The translations under genes were made by a program, and so were the position numbers. The notes under the pieces are model-generated. The model had not been told where the DNA came from. It worked only from the letters and a program-made list of their open reading frames with translations, and did no database searches. From assembly GCF_003947415.1 (NCBI RefSeq), contig NZ_QHKL01000009.1, positions 310,001-374,000 of the forward strand: 64,000 bases of DNA. The letters run 5' to 3'. Below, in pieces: positions 3,149-55,779 of this stretch. Source of the DNA: Amycolatopsis sp. WAC 01376. Its GTDB lineage: Bacteria > Actinomycetota > Actinomycetes > Mycobacteriales > Pseudonocardiaceae. Position 1 is the stretch's first letter. Every line of letters starts with the position of its first letter.

Positions 3149-3226
3149 AGCCTTCGGGCCGGTCCGCTCCAACTCGAATCGCCACTCACGACCCGCGCCG
3201 TTGTCGCCGCTGACCTGCGGAAAGAG

Positions 3227-3276
3227 AGCAAGGGACCTTTGCTGTCACCTGGCGGCGATAGCAAAGGTCCCTTGCT
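3227..3276. repeat. Palindrome, class A pair
   Basis: Two perfect 17-base arms, AGCAAGGGACCTTTGCT (3227-3243) and AGCAAAGGTCCCTTGCT (3260-3276), around a 16-base spacer. Each arm is itself a quasi-palindrome. It is the last of three unrelated palindromes in this convergent junction and ends 26 bases before the DUF4873 stop codon. Confidence 0.88.
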
Positions 3277-3301
3277 CACCCGCGGGCTTCCGCCTCAGCG
3301 G

Positions 3302-32840: not shown

Positions 32841-32924
32841 GGTCCGTGAAGGACTCCTTGAGGGACCCAGAGTCCGTGAGGGCCTCCTTCACTACCTTCA
32901 GGGTAGGCAAGGAGGCCCTCGCGG
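32841..32924. repeat. Class B elements: one left half and one degraded full copy
   Basis: 32842-32867 (GTCCGTGAAGGACTCCTTGA plus GGGACC) copies the left half of 54240-54294 and is closed by a short GGACTC/GAGTCC stem. A full class B element follows: arms 32874-32896 and 32902-32924 with three mismatches and loop TTCAG, the complement of CTGAA in 6401-6451, so it lies in the opposite orientation. Confidence 0.75.
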
Positions 32925-32954
32925 CACGTTTCCAGCGACACTGAGGTGGGCCAA

Positions 32955-33025
32955 AGTGATAGCAAGGGACCCTTGCTATCACTTACGTAGGCAGGCTAAG
33001 CAAGCGGTAGCAAAGGTCCCTTGCT
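32955..33025. repeat. Class A pair
   Basis: AGCAAGGGACCCTTGCT (32961-32977, inside a 13-bp stem AGTGATAGCAAGG/complement at 32955-32983) and AGCAAAGGTCCCTTGCT (33009-33025). The two units are complementary with one mismatch. Confidence 0.82.
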
Positions 33026-49881: not shown

Positions 49882-50034
49882 TGCCGTCCAGGTGCGGTCC
49901 GCGACATGAGCACCCGGGGCCGGCCTGAGAAGAGGGCGTCGGGCTGAACCCGATGGAGTGGTGCCGGTTGGCGACGGGTGTCCCGGGCGGTTAGCTCGGA
50001 GGGAGATCCGGATCGACACGATTGGGGCACAGGC

Positions 50035-50817
50035 TTGCGCAGGTTCGTGCTGTTCTTCGCGGTGGTTTCGGTGCTGCTGTCCGGGGTGCCCGCTTCCGCA
50101 CAACCCGCCGGGACACCGGTCCACCTCGCCGACGGAGGCGGGAACCTCTCCCTGGCCGCGGCCGACGGCAAGCTCGCCCTCGCCGACGCGAAGGACGCCA
50201 ACGCGCAATGGGTGTACGACAAGGCGGCGCTCTCGTACAAGCATGTCGCGAGTGGACAGTGCCTGGCGGCGATCAGTCCCGTCGACGGCGTCGGCGTCAA
50301 ACTCGTGGCGTGCGACGGCAAGGACCGTCACCAGCAGTGGCGCCGCAACGCCGGGCTGCCCGGATTGGTGCTCCTGGCGAACGTGGCGACCGCGCGCTGC
50401 CTCACCGCGGAGGCGCCGATCGCCGGATCGCGGCTGTATCAGGAAGTCTGTTCACTGCCAGGACTGTCCAACACTTGGGCGGCCGGGGTGCGGACCCTCG
50501 CGATCCTGTCGGGGAACGGGCAACGACTGTCCACGAAGACACCCGGTCAGCCGTTCGTGGTGCGCGTGATCGGGGAGAGCGGGCAGCCCGCGGCCGACGT
50601 GCCGGTGAACTTCTTCGTCCGCGCCGCGCGGGCGAAGAACGTGCTGGTCTTCGAAGGCGGCGCCGAGACGGCGACGGCGAAGACCGGCGCCGACGGGTCG
50701 GCCGCGAGCCCGAAGATCGTCCTGACCGAACCGGGCGAATTCGAGATCCGGTTCGCGGGCAGCGCGAGCCTGGAGGACGGGAACAGCATCACCTTCGAGG
50801 GCAGCTGCACCTGCTGA
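50035..50817 (+). CDS. Secreted ricin-type lectin-like and Ig-like domain protein
   Basis: 260 residues. The TTG at 50035 gives a clean signal peptide MRRFVLFFAVVSVLLSG with cleavage after PASA. Residues 25-150 form a beta-trefoil-like region (QWVYDKAALSYKHVASGQCL ... DRHQQWRRN, QxW motif). Residues 170-258 resemble a bacterial Ig-like domain (PGQPFVVRVIGESGQPAADVPVNFFV ... ADGSAASPKIVL). The protein ends SCTC. Carbohydrate or wall binding is likely; no catalytic domain. The GTG/ATG starts farther upstream would spoil the signal peptide. Confidence 0.75.
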   Translation: MRRFVLFFAVVSVLLSGVPASAQPAGTPVHLADGGGNLSLAAADGKLALADAKDANAQWVYDKAALSYKHVASGQCLAAISPVDGVGVKLVACDGKDRHQQWRRNAGLPGLVLLANVATARCLTAEAPIAGSRLYQEVCSLPGLSNTWAAGVRTLAILSGNGQRLSTKTPGQPFVVRVIGESGQPAADVPVNFFVRAARAKNVLVFEGGAETATAKTGADGSAASPKIVLTEPGEFEIRFAGSASLEDGNSITFEGSCTC

Positions 50818-53128: not shown

Positions 53129-54022
53129 GTGGAACAAGAGTCCGAACTCGTCACCGGCGAGGCCGTCGTCCTGGACGTGCGCGCGGCGAAACTGGCCAGC
53201 CGCGGGCTCGCCATGATGCTCGACGTCGCCGTCCAGCTGATCGCGCTGGTCGTCGCGATGCTGGTCCTGAGCCAGGTCGCCGCGTTCGGGGACGAGGCGC
53301 TGGCACTGACCCTGTTCCTGGTGACCCTCGTGCTGATCATGGTCGGCTACCCGGTGATCTCCGAGACACTGACCCGCGGCCGCACCCTCGGGAAGATGGC
53401 GCTCGGCCTGCGGGTGGTCCGCACCGACGGCGGCCCGGTCCGGTTCCGGCACGCGCTGGTCCGCGGGCTCGCCGGCTTCTTCGTCGACTTCTGGGCGCTG
53501 GGCATGCTCGGCGTCGTGGCCGTGGTCACGTCGCTGCTGTCACCCAACGGCCGCCGCGTCGGCGACTACCTCGCCGGCACCCTCGTGATCCGGGAACGCA
53601 TGCCCGCCTCCCGCACGCCGTACGTCGGGATGCCGCCGCAGCTGGCGCACTGGGCTTCGCAGCTGGACCTGACCCGGCTGCCGAACGACCTCGCGCTGGC
53701 CGTCCGGCAGTACTTGAGCCGCACGAGCGAGCTTCGCCCCGAAGCGGTCGAAGCCCTCGGGTACGGGCTCGCGCAGCAGGTCGCTTCGGTGATCGGAGCG
53801 CCGGTGCCGCCGGGGGTGCCGTCGTGGGCGTACCTGTCGGCGGTGCTGGCGGAGCGGCGGCAGCGGGATCAGGCGAAGCTGCAACCGGCGGTTCAGTACG
53901 GGCCGCCGGTGGCGCAGCCCTTCGCGGCGGGACAGTCCTTCGCGCCTGTTGCGCAGCCGGTCGCCCAACCGCAGCCTCCCTCGGAGCCGGTACCGGAGAA
54001 CCCCTTCACGCCGCCCAGCTGA
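53129..54022 (+). CDS. RDD-family membrane protein
   Basis: 297 residues. The RDD domain (about 1-150) shows the family Arg and Asp residues in LASRGLAMMLDVAVQ, TRGRTLGKMALGLRV and RRVGDYLAGTLVI. A cytoplasmic tail follows, ending in a Pro/Gln-rich stretch (FAPVAQPVAQPQPPSEPVP). RDD proteins are implicated in small-molecule or ion transport in some bacteria; here it pairs with SpoIIM and the MoxR locus. The GTG at 53129 is the only start near the domain edge. Confidence 0.87.
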   Translation: MEQESELVTGEAVVLDVRAAKLASRGLAMMLDVAVQLIALVVAMLVLSQVAAFGDEALALTLFLVTLVLIMVGYPVISETLTRGRTLGKMALGLRVVRTDGGPVRFRHALVRGLAGFFVDFWALGMLGVVAVVTSLLSPNGRRVGDYLAGTLVIRERMPASRTPYVGMPPQLAHWASQLDLTRLPNDLALAVRQYLSRTSELRPEAVEALGYGLAQQVASVIGAPVPPGVPSWAYLSAVLAERRQRDQAKLQPAVQYGPPVAQPFAAGQSFAPVAQPVAQPQPPSEPVPENPFTPPS

Positions 54023-54032
54023 CCTACGCCGA

Positions 54033-54089
54033 AGTCCGTGAGGGCCTCCTTCCCTACCCTGAGAGTAGGGAAGGAGGCCCTCACGGACT
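54033..54089. repeat. Palindrome, class B, first of three
   Basis: 25-bp perfect arms (54033-54057 and 54065-54089; AGTCCGTGAGGGCCTCCTTC leading), loop CCTGAGA. It starts 10 bases after the RDD stop. Confidence 0.93.
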
Positions 54090-54125
54090 TGCGCCGACTT
54101 ACCCTGCCGGGCCCCTGCGCCCCCA

Positions 54126-54182
54126 AGTACATGAAGGCCCCCTTCCTTGCGCTAGACGCAAGGAAGGGGGCCTTCATGTACT
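54126..54182. repeat. Palindrome, class B, second of three
   Basis: 26-bp perfect arms (54126-54151 and 54157-54182; AGTACATGAAGGCCCCCTTC leading), loop CTAGA. The inner part, CCTTCCTTGCG, recalls class C; the outer part begins GTACATGAAGG instead of GTCCGTGAAGG. Confidence 0.93.
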
Positions 54183-54239
54183 ACGAAGCCTTTACACGCT
54201 GCCGACGGTGCCACAGCGCCAAAAGGTCGCGTTGCAGAA

Positions 54240-54294
54240 GTCCGTGAAGGCCTCCTTGAGGGACTCTGGGTCCCTCAAGGAGGCCTTCACGGAC
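54240..54294. repeat. Palindrome, class B, third of three
   Basis: 25-bp perfect arms (54240-54264 and 54270-54294; GTCCGTGAAGGCCTCCTTGA leading), loop TCTGG. The inner word CTCCTTGAGGGAC is repeated as a half-copy at 32842-32867. It ends 24 bases before the metallopeptidase stop. Confidence 0.93.
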
Positions 54295-54318: not shown

Positions 54319-55779
54319 TCAGGAGACGTCGGCCGGCTTGGCAGACCACGTGTTGCACTGGAACAGCCGGTTCTTCTGCGCGCCGTGCTGCCACCACGAG
54401 ACGGCGTGCGCGTCGGAGCCGTGATCGCGCGGGCCGCCGTTGTGGTCGCCGCGGTCCTGGGTCTGCCAGGCGTCGCGGTACATCGCCTGGTCGACCGAGC
54501 CGCCGCGGCCGACGGTCGAGCCCAGGAACGTCCCGGACAGACACTGCGCCGAAAGCTCGTTGCGCCGCGACATCTCCAGGCCCGCCGCCGAGTCGGTGCC
54601 CGCTTCGTACCGCGCGTCCCAATAGGCTTTCGAGATACCGGAGAGCGCCTGGATGTGGTGCGCGTACTCGTGGGCGTAGAGGGCCAGATAGACCCCGGGC
54701 CGGTTGCCGTACTGAGGGACCTGAAGGCCTTCGTACGGCATGTAAAGCGTCTCGTTCTGCGAGCAGTAGAACGCCGCCACCGAGCCGTTGCTGGCGTCGC
54801 CGCAGGGGCTCGACCAGTTCTTGCCGGACGGGTACTTCACGGTCGGGACGCGGAACGGCAGTTTCGTGTAGTTCATGACCTGCTGCCAGACGCTGTCCAG
54901 GCAGGGCCGCGCGCTTTCGAAGAACGCCGCGGCCGCTTCCGGGTTGTTCGCCCAGCGCGAGAGGTTGCACGGCTGGTTCGGGAGACCGACTTGGGAATCG
55001 AGCCACAGCGGGTTGTCCGCCAGCTTGTAGTGCGGTTGCGGGCCGGACGGGGCACGGCTGGCCGAGGTCTCCCGGGTCGAGCCCGCCGACGTTTCGCGCG
55101 AGGCGGTCGAATCGCGGGAACGGGTGCTCGTCGTCGACGTGTCGCTGGACGTGGTCGTCGTGTAGTCCGAAGAGGACGTCGTCGAATAACTGGAGTATCC
55201 GACATCCGCGGTGTGCCGCGAGTCGCCGTTCGCGATGGTGACGACCATCAGCAGCCCGCCCATGACCGCCATCACGGCGACGATCGCGACCGCCGCGATC
55301 ACCCCGCCGTTGGACTTCTTGGCGTGATATCCGCCGTACGGGGTGAACGCGGGCTGAGCGAAACGCGGGCCGTACGGAAGCTGCGGCGGGCCGGCCGCGC
55401 CGGGCCGGAACGGGACCGGTGCGCCGATCCGCGGCGGCGGCAGCGGGGCCGCGCCCGGCGGGGGCAGCGGCATCCCGCCGCTCGGCGGACCTTGCCGGAA
55501 CGGCGGCGGGACCGGAGTCGGCCGGGAGACCGGCGGTTGCCCGGGGCGGCCGGGCGGGACGGGGCCCGGACCACCGCGCGGCGGCAGTGGCCGCGCTCCG
55601 GGTGGCGGGAGCGGGCGACCACCTTGCGGTGGCAGCGGACGCGCGCCCGGCGGCGGGAGCGGGCGGCCACCTTGCGGCGGAAGCGGACGCGCTCCGGGTG
55701 GTGGCAGCGGGCGGCCACCGTGCGGTGGCGGAGTCGGCCGGCGCCGCGGATCAGGCGCGCCGGGCGGCTGCTGGTTCAT
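54319..55779 (-). CDS. Membrane-anchored neutral zinc metallopeptidase with proline-repeat leader
   Basis: 486 residues, paralogue of the protein at 43385-44473. The cytoplasmic leader (about 1-155) holds three tandem copies of a 16-residue unit, PLPPPGARPLPPQGGR, and further PPG-rich sequence. A membrane segment (GGVIAAVAIVAVMAVMGGLLMVV, about 158-180), a Ser/Thr linker and the extracellular peptidase domain follow, with zinc motif HEYAHH at about 369 and GLEMSRRNELSAQCLSG. The shared tail NRLFQCNTWSAKPADVS is close to that of the paralogue. Substrate unknown. Confidence 0.88.
   Translation of the reverse strand: MNQQPPGAPDPRRRPTPPPHGGRPLPPPGARPLPPQGGRPLPPPGARPLPPQGGRPLPPPGARPLPPRGGPGPVPPGRPGQPPVSRPTPVPPPFRQGPPSGGMPLPPPGAAPLPPPRIGAPVPFRPGAAGPPQLPYGPRFAQPAFTPYGGYHAKKSNGGVIAAVAIVAVMAVMGGLLMVVTIANGDSRHTADVGYSSYSTTSSSDYTTTTSSDTSTTSTRSRDSTASRETSAGSTRETSASRAPSGPQPHYKLADNPLWLDSQVGLPNQPCNLSRWANNPEAAAAFFESARPCLDSVWQQVMNYTKLPFRVPTVKYPSGKNWSSPCGDASNGSVAAFYCSQNETLYMPYEGLQVPQYGNRPGVYLALYAHEYAHHIQALSGISKAYWDARYEAGTDSAAGLEMSRRNELSAQCLSGTFLGSTVGRGGSVDQAMYRDAWQTQDRGDHNGGPRDHGSDAHAVSWWQHGAQKNRLFQCNTWSAKPADVS

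Follow-up and report, generated by a model that had tools for sequence, protein, structure and literature searches.

We have studied three different perfect palindromes that stand in a row in the 296 bp between two convergent genes of Amycolatopsis sp. WAC 01376, a member of a genus of antibiotic producers. The palindromes belong to families of REP-like dispersed hairpins. The explanation that we favor, with a probability of about 0.58, is that they provide structures at the RNA 3′ ends for the transcripts of both genes, acting in two directions either as terminators that lack a U-tract or by protecting the RNA end, and that the three elements would be redundant. The DNA that was analyzed, termed the window below, is a stretch of 64,000 nucleotides of this genome (G000).

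The features are collected in Table 1. The flanking genes had been read as encoding an RDD protein and a metallopeptidase, and Pfam matches agree (RDD PF06271, E = 3.7e-14; Zn_peptidase PF04228, E = 2.6e-11). The same sequence-only reading described three elements with perfect arms of 25-26 bp, standing 36 to 57 bp apart; the arms are as described, and the intervals were measured as 35 and 57 bp. The RDD stop (54022) lies 9 bp ahead of the start of element 1, and 24 bp separate the end of element 3 from the peptidase stop (54319). The loop given for element 1 is that of the + strand, and its arms reach 29 nt each if one mismatch is allowed. The further claim that the elements are not copies of one another holds in part: their clusters differ (F1, F3 and F6), but all three have the outer word GTNCRTGARGGCC in common, and elements 1 and 3 are identical at 17 of 18 outer bases.

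Table 1. Coordinates in the window of the elements, their spacers and neighboring genes, and of a composite element elsewhere in the window
Feature	Position	Strand	Description
RDD-family membrane protein gene	53129..54022	+	convergent neighbor; start taken from a home-made gene caller
Palindromic element 1	54032..54090	.	cluster F1; outer word GTCCGTGAGGGCCTCCTT; 26-bp perfect stem, loop 7
Spacer 1	54091..54125	.	between elements 1 and 2
Palindromic element 2	54126..54182	.	cluster F3; outer word GTACATGAAGGCCCCC; 26-bp perfect stem, loop 5
Spacer 2	54183..54239	.	between elements 2 and 3
Palindromic element 3	54240..54294	.	cluster F6; GTCCGTGAAGGCCTCCTTGAGGGAC; 25-bp perfect stem, loop 5
Putative neutral zinc metallopeptidase gene	54319..55779	-	convergent neighbor; 486-aa ORF; 54319-55473 by the gene caller
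Composite	32842..32924	.	left half of element-3 type fused to a palindrome of element-1 type

When folded as RNA from either strand, each element gives one hairpin of 25-28 pairs with a free energy of −52.9 to −58.5 kcal/mol; compared with shuffled sequences, the z scores are −10 to −14 on both strands. Palindromes with arms of at least 14 (one mismatch allowed) number 17 in the window, 13 of them with arms of at least 18, against 1, 0 and 1 in three first-order Markov versions of the window, where none was longer than 14. Probes from the spacers (28 bases of spacer 1 and 27 bases of spacer 2, at most 4 mismatches) had no second match in the six stretches of DNA examined. A 21-base probe of spacer 2 matched the same junction of the relative G022 with 2 mismatches, together with three weak places with 3-4 mismatches.

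The elements are members of repeat families. Palindromes with arms of at least 16 and at most 2 mismatches were collected from four stretches of this genome (1.49 Mb) and from 0.4 Mb of each of the relatives G022 and G019, and were clustered at 80% identity over the central 50 bases. The 486 palindromes of these six stretches fall into 24 clusters of at least three members (17 of at least five), 11 pairs and 208 singletons; F1 has 44 members over all six stretches, F3 has 19 and F6 has 15. The 18-base outer word of element 3 has 124 exact matches on the two strands of the 9.07 Mb genome, and its reversed control has none. Among 80 genomes of the genus, 31 carry the arm pattern GTGAAGGCCTCCTT..AAGGAGGCCTTCAC, in 1 to 159 copies each. 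A sample of 200 genomes of the family contains it in 10, made up of 9 of the 11 genomes in the sample that belong to the same genus and one single copy in another genus. REP-like dispersed palindrome families have multiplied in Amycolatopsis, mostly behind genes. A search of open-licence papers yielded no account of these hairpin families in Amycolatopsis, and the window has no Rfam match at the gathering score.

Some local features of the repeats were also seen. The stretch G000:C11:1-400000 (L031-L050) is poor in palindromes, with 28 having arms of at least 18, compared with 67 and 53 in two other 400-kb stretches. Cluster F16 (GCGTTTAGCCCGCTAAA) is confined to this stretch and absent from the other five. 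A further repeated short palindrome, built around AGCAAGGGACC(TTT)GCT, lies beside long elements at 3226-3277 and 32954-32984 of the window; it is also present in other gaps, sometimes several times in one gap.

The position of the elements relative to genes was analyzed for the 181 elements of this genome that belong to clusters of at least five, using gene calls from a simple home-made caller. Convergent gaps hold 97 of them, tandem gaps 77 and divergent gaps 6, and 1 is genic. The sample contains 35.5 kb of convergent, 104.4 kb of tandem and 54.9 kb of divergent gap DNA, giving densities of approximately 2.7, 0.74 and 0.11 elements per kb, respectively. Convergent elements lie a median of 19 bp from the nearest stop. 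In tandem gaps 68 of the 77 are closer to the 3′ end of the upstream gene, at a median of 25 bp from its stop, and this is also true for 28 of the 32 in tandem gaps longer than 300 bp, where the median distance is 76 bp. Unique and paired palindromes (n = 158) have the same but a weaker lean (43 convergent, 67 tandem, 12 divergent and 36 genic); clusters of three or four members (F18-F24) are in neither of the two groups compared. The portions available of two earlier studies describe a lean toward 3′ ends as general for bacterial stem-loops and REPs (PMC1590033, PMC3733652), and selection against insertion elsewhere could therefore produce this placement.

Is there a special reason for the presence of three elements, as had been hinted from the sequence? 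The numbers of palindromes in 128 convergent gaps of at least 60 bp were counted, taking family members together with unique palindromes with arms of at least 18. Gaps with 0, 1, 2, 3 and 4 palindromes number 43, 64, 10, 9 and 2, where a Poisson distribution predicts 50.5, 47.0, 21.8, 6.8 and 1.6. Singles are thus too many and doubles too few, and three or more are found in 11 of the 128 gaps against approximately 8.7 expected. Neighbors do not significantly avoid members of their own family (1 of 27 adjacent pairs against 2.5 expected, P = 0.27, in 21 runs). Since the multiplicity is close to Poisson and same-family pairs are not significantly rare, three different elements in a row need no special cause, and a particular meaning of the number three was rejected. 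In a genome so densely populated by these elements, the triple is unremarkable. Nor is any element obligatory, because 40 of the 128 gaps have no palindrome (43 under the other counting).

If the triple were instead a designed unit providing three distinct regulatory inputs, a recurrent arrangement might be sought in the adjoining of F3 and F6 in 4 of the 21 runs. However, F1 and F2 adjoin equally often (4 of 21), and the spacers of the F3-F6 runs appear unrelated by eye, on which ground a repeated F3-F6 module was discarded. Taken with the near-Poisson multiplicity, and with the single large element of most other close relatives, this makes a designed unit extremely improbable.

We compared the same junction in relatives. 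Those with names, with their values for the junction gene, are A. keratiniphila (94% over 271 residues), A. coloradensis (93% over 256), A. decaplanina (90%), A. roodepoortensis (87%) and A. orientalis (84%). Close relatives were defined by an RDD identity of at least 78%; 15 were readable apart from G022, with each species counted once, the comparison leaving out G019 (locus L129, where the end of the RDD gene is unreadable) and L110. A junction palindrome with arms of at least 24 (at most 2 mismatches) is present in 11 of these 15, a count in which L092, L094 and L130 were included without a demonstrated peptidase neighbor. L095 and L134 have shorter palindromes, with arms of 19 and 14, and the junctions of L094 and L099 contain no palindrome with an arm of 12 or more. 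Labeled by eye, the elements of the 11 belong to five families: F3 (L091, L127, L128), F6 (L093, L131, L132), F1 and CGCGTGAAGG relatives (L096, L098), the GTCGTGAGTG group F8 (L092, L097) and the GTCGCGAAAGCC group F18 (L130). Most of these other close relatives have a single large element at the junction, and in L097 it is flanked on each side by one half of a broken F3-like element. The family at the RDD junction turns over between species, and this replacement of one family by another is an unusual feature. The 40 more distant loci (23 + 17) are mostly devoid of such elements, the exceptions being L142, with an F1-like element (arm 26), and L123, L144, L146 and L153, with palindromes of arm 19-22. 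In L092 (A. orientalis) RDD is followed by a gene that, judged by eye, corresponds to the window gene 49978-50817, as though an inversion between elements of two convergent junctions had turned the 51-54 kb segment around.

The wide junction is shared by G022, which has a median gene identity of 94.7% in the region. Here only 9 bases of the right arm of element 1 are left after the RDD stop, and element 2 is the sole intact one of the three. Element 3 is split by approximately 1.25 kb (L176:1470-2722) with a transposase containing rve and HTH_38 domains, an insertion that we take to be IS30-like. These remnants suggest that the common ancestor with G022 probably had all three elements, two of which have since been lost as intact palindromes. 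Loss of intact elements 1 and 3 speaks for redundancy, and since one large element is the usual number in the other close relatives, three are not required. Insertion sequences that target REPs have been described (PMC1525189). Across the genome, 14 of 42 convergent slots are filled in both G000 and G022, read as the same family in 6 and as different families in 8. The eight are not clearly above chance, so turnover is claimed for the RDD junction and not as a general retention of slots; genome-wide slot retention was dropped as a candidate.

Co-variation of the arms was counted by starting from one arm and then seeking a partner that differed by no more than 5 mismatches, which existed for 426 of 556 arms and was lacking for the other 130. 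The words used read the palindrome from both strands and also catch sister subfamilies. For eight outer words, changes on both sides were paired in 141, 55, 72, 74, 54, 14, 35 and 19 cases, and unpaired in 6, 6, 1, 11, 4, 0, 0 and 1, respectively. Changes on one side numbered 115, 112, 61, 44, 16, 6, 49 and 13 for the same words in order. Pairs of elements at the same site in different species also have changes in both arms (for example at junctions 38, 49, 64 and 195), and at junction 191 a block of both arms has been exchanged while the center and ends remain alike. The co-variation would fit selection that favors pairing, repair that restores one arm from its partner, or the two together. 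In convergent gaps where this genome has an element and the relative lacks it, the share that still has a strong hairpin (at most −28 kcal/mol) is 0.71 (n = 7) and 0.62 (n = 8), albeit in small numbers; empty divergent gaps give 0.40 (n = 40) and 0.21 (n = 43).

The position behind genes, the symmetry in two directions and the strong pairing argue for a role at the RNA 3′ end. On transcription from either side each element would fold into its hairpin of 25-28 pairs, and the outer two, lying just past the two stops, would set the 3′ termini of the transcripts of both genes, RDD and peptidase. They may do so as U-less (‘I-shaped’) terminators, or as barriers to 3′-5′ exonucleases after release by Rho. 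The three would have come to be present through independent arrival and loss, and would be redundant.

A terminator-type role had been suggested by the sequence-only reading. The positions behind genes fit this, but the hairpins have no U-tract. The 10 nt that follow family hairpins contain 15.2% T (a mean of 1.5 T), compared with 17.9% in intergenic DNA, and only 1.4% of the flanks of family hairpins have at least 5 T in 10 nt; for unique palindromes the corresponding value is 19.8% T, with a mean of 2.0. The GC-rich hairpin after the stop that is typical of a canonical Rho-independent terminator is present, whereas the U-rich tract is missing, which argues against such a terminator. The accessible text on Streptomyces gives terminators with 3-4 U, having weak U-tracts with long stable hairpins (PMC12207403). 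For mycobacteria, U-less terminators within 50 bp of stops have been claimed and disputed, and Rho-dependent ends are common, according to the available part of that source (PMC12288462). The definition of an I-shaped terminator, having no U-tail and lying within 50 bp of the stop, is matched by the medians of 19 and 25 bp, though not by every element.

The hairpins might act post-transcriptionally only. Termination, by Rho or otherwise, would then occur downstream, and the hairpins would block exonucleases and stabilize both mRNAs. This forms half of the explanation that we favor, and its weight is contained in the figure given above; taken alone we regard it as possible but tentative. It draws support from the missing U-tract, the great stability of the stems and the common Rho-dependent ends of mycobacteria (in the part available of PMC12288462), yet all of the positional evidence fits termination equally well. 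Somewhat unlikely, in our judgment, is that the elements are neutral or selfish, landing widely and surviving behind genes where they are harmless, with no function in the ending of RNA. The near-Poisson numbers per junction, the turnover of families between species, the loss in G022 of elements 1 and 3 as intact palindromes and the absent U-tract are all consistent with neutrality, as is the same placement of REPs in other bacteria seen in the available text of PMC3733652. Against it, the lean toward the 3′ end persists in the longer tandem gaps, although at the larger median distance. The arms co-vary, though biased palindrome repair could also yield this, and strong hairpins often persist where the family element is missing, in the small numbers given above. 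A role at the level of DNA, with the elements as recognition sequences for a nucleoid, gyrase-like or regulator protein, would account for perfect symmetry on DNA. But many arm sequences occupy the same kind of place (the 17 clusters of at least five) and divergent, promoter-bearing gaps are strongly depleted, making this very unlikely.

How do the elements spread? No match to a RAYT-type Y1 transposase (Y1_Tnp PF01797) was found in G000 at E ≤ 0.001, while 5 of 14 control genomes had matches. For 173 elements, with ends taken as the palindrome ends, flanking direct repeats of 2-6 bp were not above permutation as evidence of target-site duplication; a CGCCGA repeat noticed by eye near both ends of element 1 was rejected as such a duplication, having no general counterpart. 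A regular GTAG/CGTC tag was not found, each (or its complement) lying near either end in 1 to 13 of the 173 elements, numbers that have no random control. Among those listed of 16 junctions aligned there were no clean empty insertion sites, because the DNA around the elements is rearranged.

The inner word of element 3 had been said to recur as a half element at 32842. This recurrence is real, with 1 mismatch in 18, and the half element is the composite of Table 1. The two parts are joined at a shared GTCC word, and the join is found at 6 places in the genome (5 exact and 1 with 2 mismatches). The stretch of G019 contains three like fusions. Longer repeats between genes also exist, the longest among the best 40 measuring 371 bp. 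Repeats of 130-370 bp that are 85-90% alike contain or adjoin GTCGTGAGTGG palindromes, at C21:61584-62595, C21:169306-169939, C22:197043-197973 and C26:134370-135052 in joined-stretch coordinates; these are possibly larger mobile units. Given the sixfold composite join and the longer intergenic repeats, exchange between elements appears likely. A broader idea, which we consider unlikely, is of a spreading, self-renewing population of interchangeable 3′-end hairpins with no dedicated transposase. Hairpin-templated copying and exchange between elements would keep the arms perfect, composites such as that at 32842 would found new families, and families would swap at a filled slot. If this were true, RNA 3′-end signals would turn over within the genus while the slot remains filled.

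The families may be compared with known systems, for which the likenesses and differences below refer to the available portions of the sources. REPs, with their GTAG and CGTC super-families, are likewise short palindromes dispersed outside genes, with several families and many copies, located between convergent or unidirectional genes near 3′ ends and often paired (PMC3733652). The present elements are dispersed, of high copy number, extragenic and rare in divergent gaps, as are REPs. In contrast, REPs are of 20-40 bp (PMC3733652), whereas the three here are 55-59 bp with perfect stems of 25-26 bp; there are many families in one actinobacterium, with neither a regular terminal tag nor the Y1 transposase associated with the GTAG type. 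REPs of the CGTC type are also without associated transposase genes (PMC3733652). The family system is thus REP-like in behavior but lacks two REP markers, the terminal tag and RAYT. The target-site duplication of a MITE or of transposon-mobilized elements was not seen either. The I-shaped terminators of mycobacteria (PMC12288462) share the GC-rich hairpin with no U-tail within 50 bp of a stop; unlike them, the hairpins here are putative terminators, and form dispersed repeat families with interchangeable members. The uptake-signal hairpins of Neisseria and Pasteurellaceae (PMC1852404) resemble them as a word repeated genome-wide, with inverted pairs forming hairpins after genes, but have words of approximately 9-11 nt and T-rich tails, in place of long arms, many families and no U-tract. 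Families of stem-loop sequences (PMC2267715, PMC1590033) are similarly repeated, intergenic and biased to 3′ ends; the high-GC Gram-positives in the table available from those surveys are Corynebacterium and Mycobacterium, with no Amycolatopsis. Lacking a detected Y1 transposase, target duplication, U-tract and regular GTAG/CGTC tag, the elements are neither classical REPs nor classical terminators.

If the elements end or protect transcripts, Amycolatopsis would be a natural experiment, in which unrelated hairpins stand at one gene end in sister species. It would also provide a case of REP-like spread in which no Y1 transposase is detected, and it would allow a test of the ending of RNA at U-less hairpins in high-GC actinobacteria, a disputed point.
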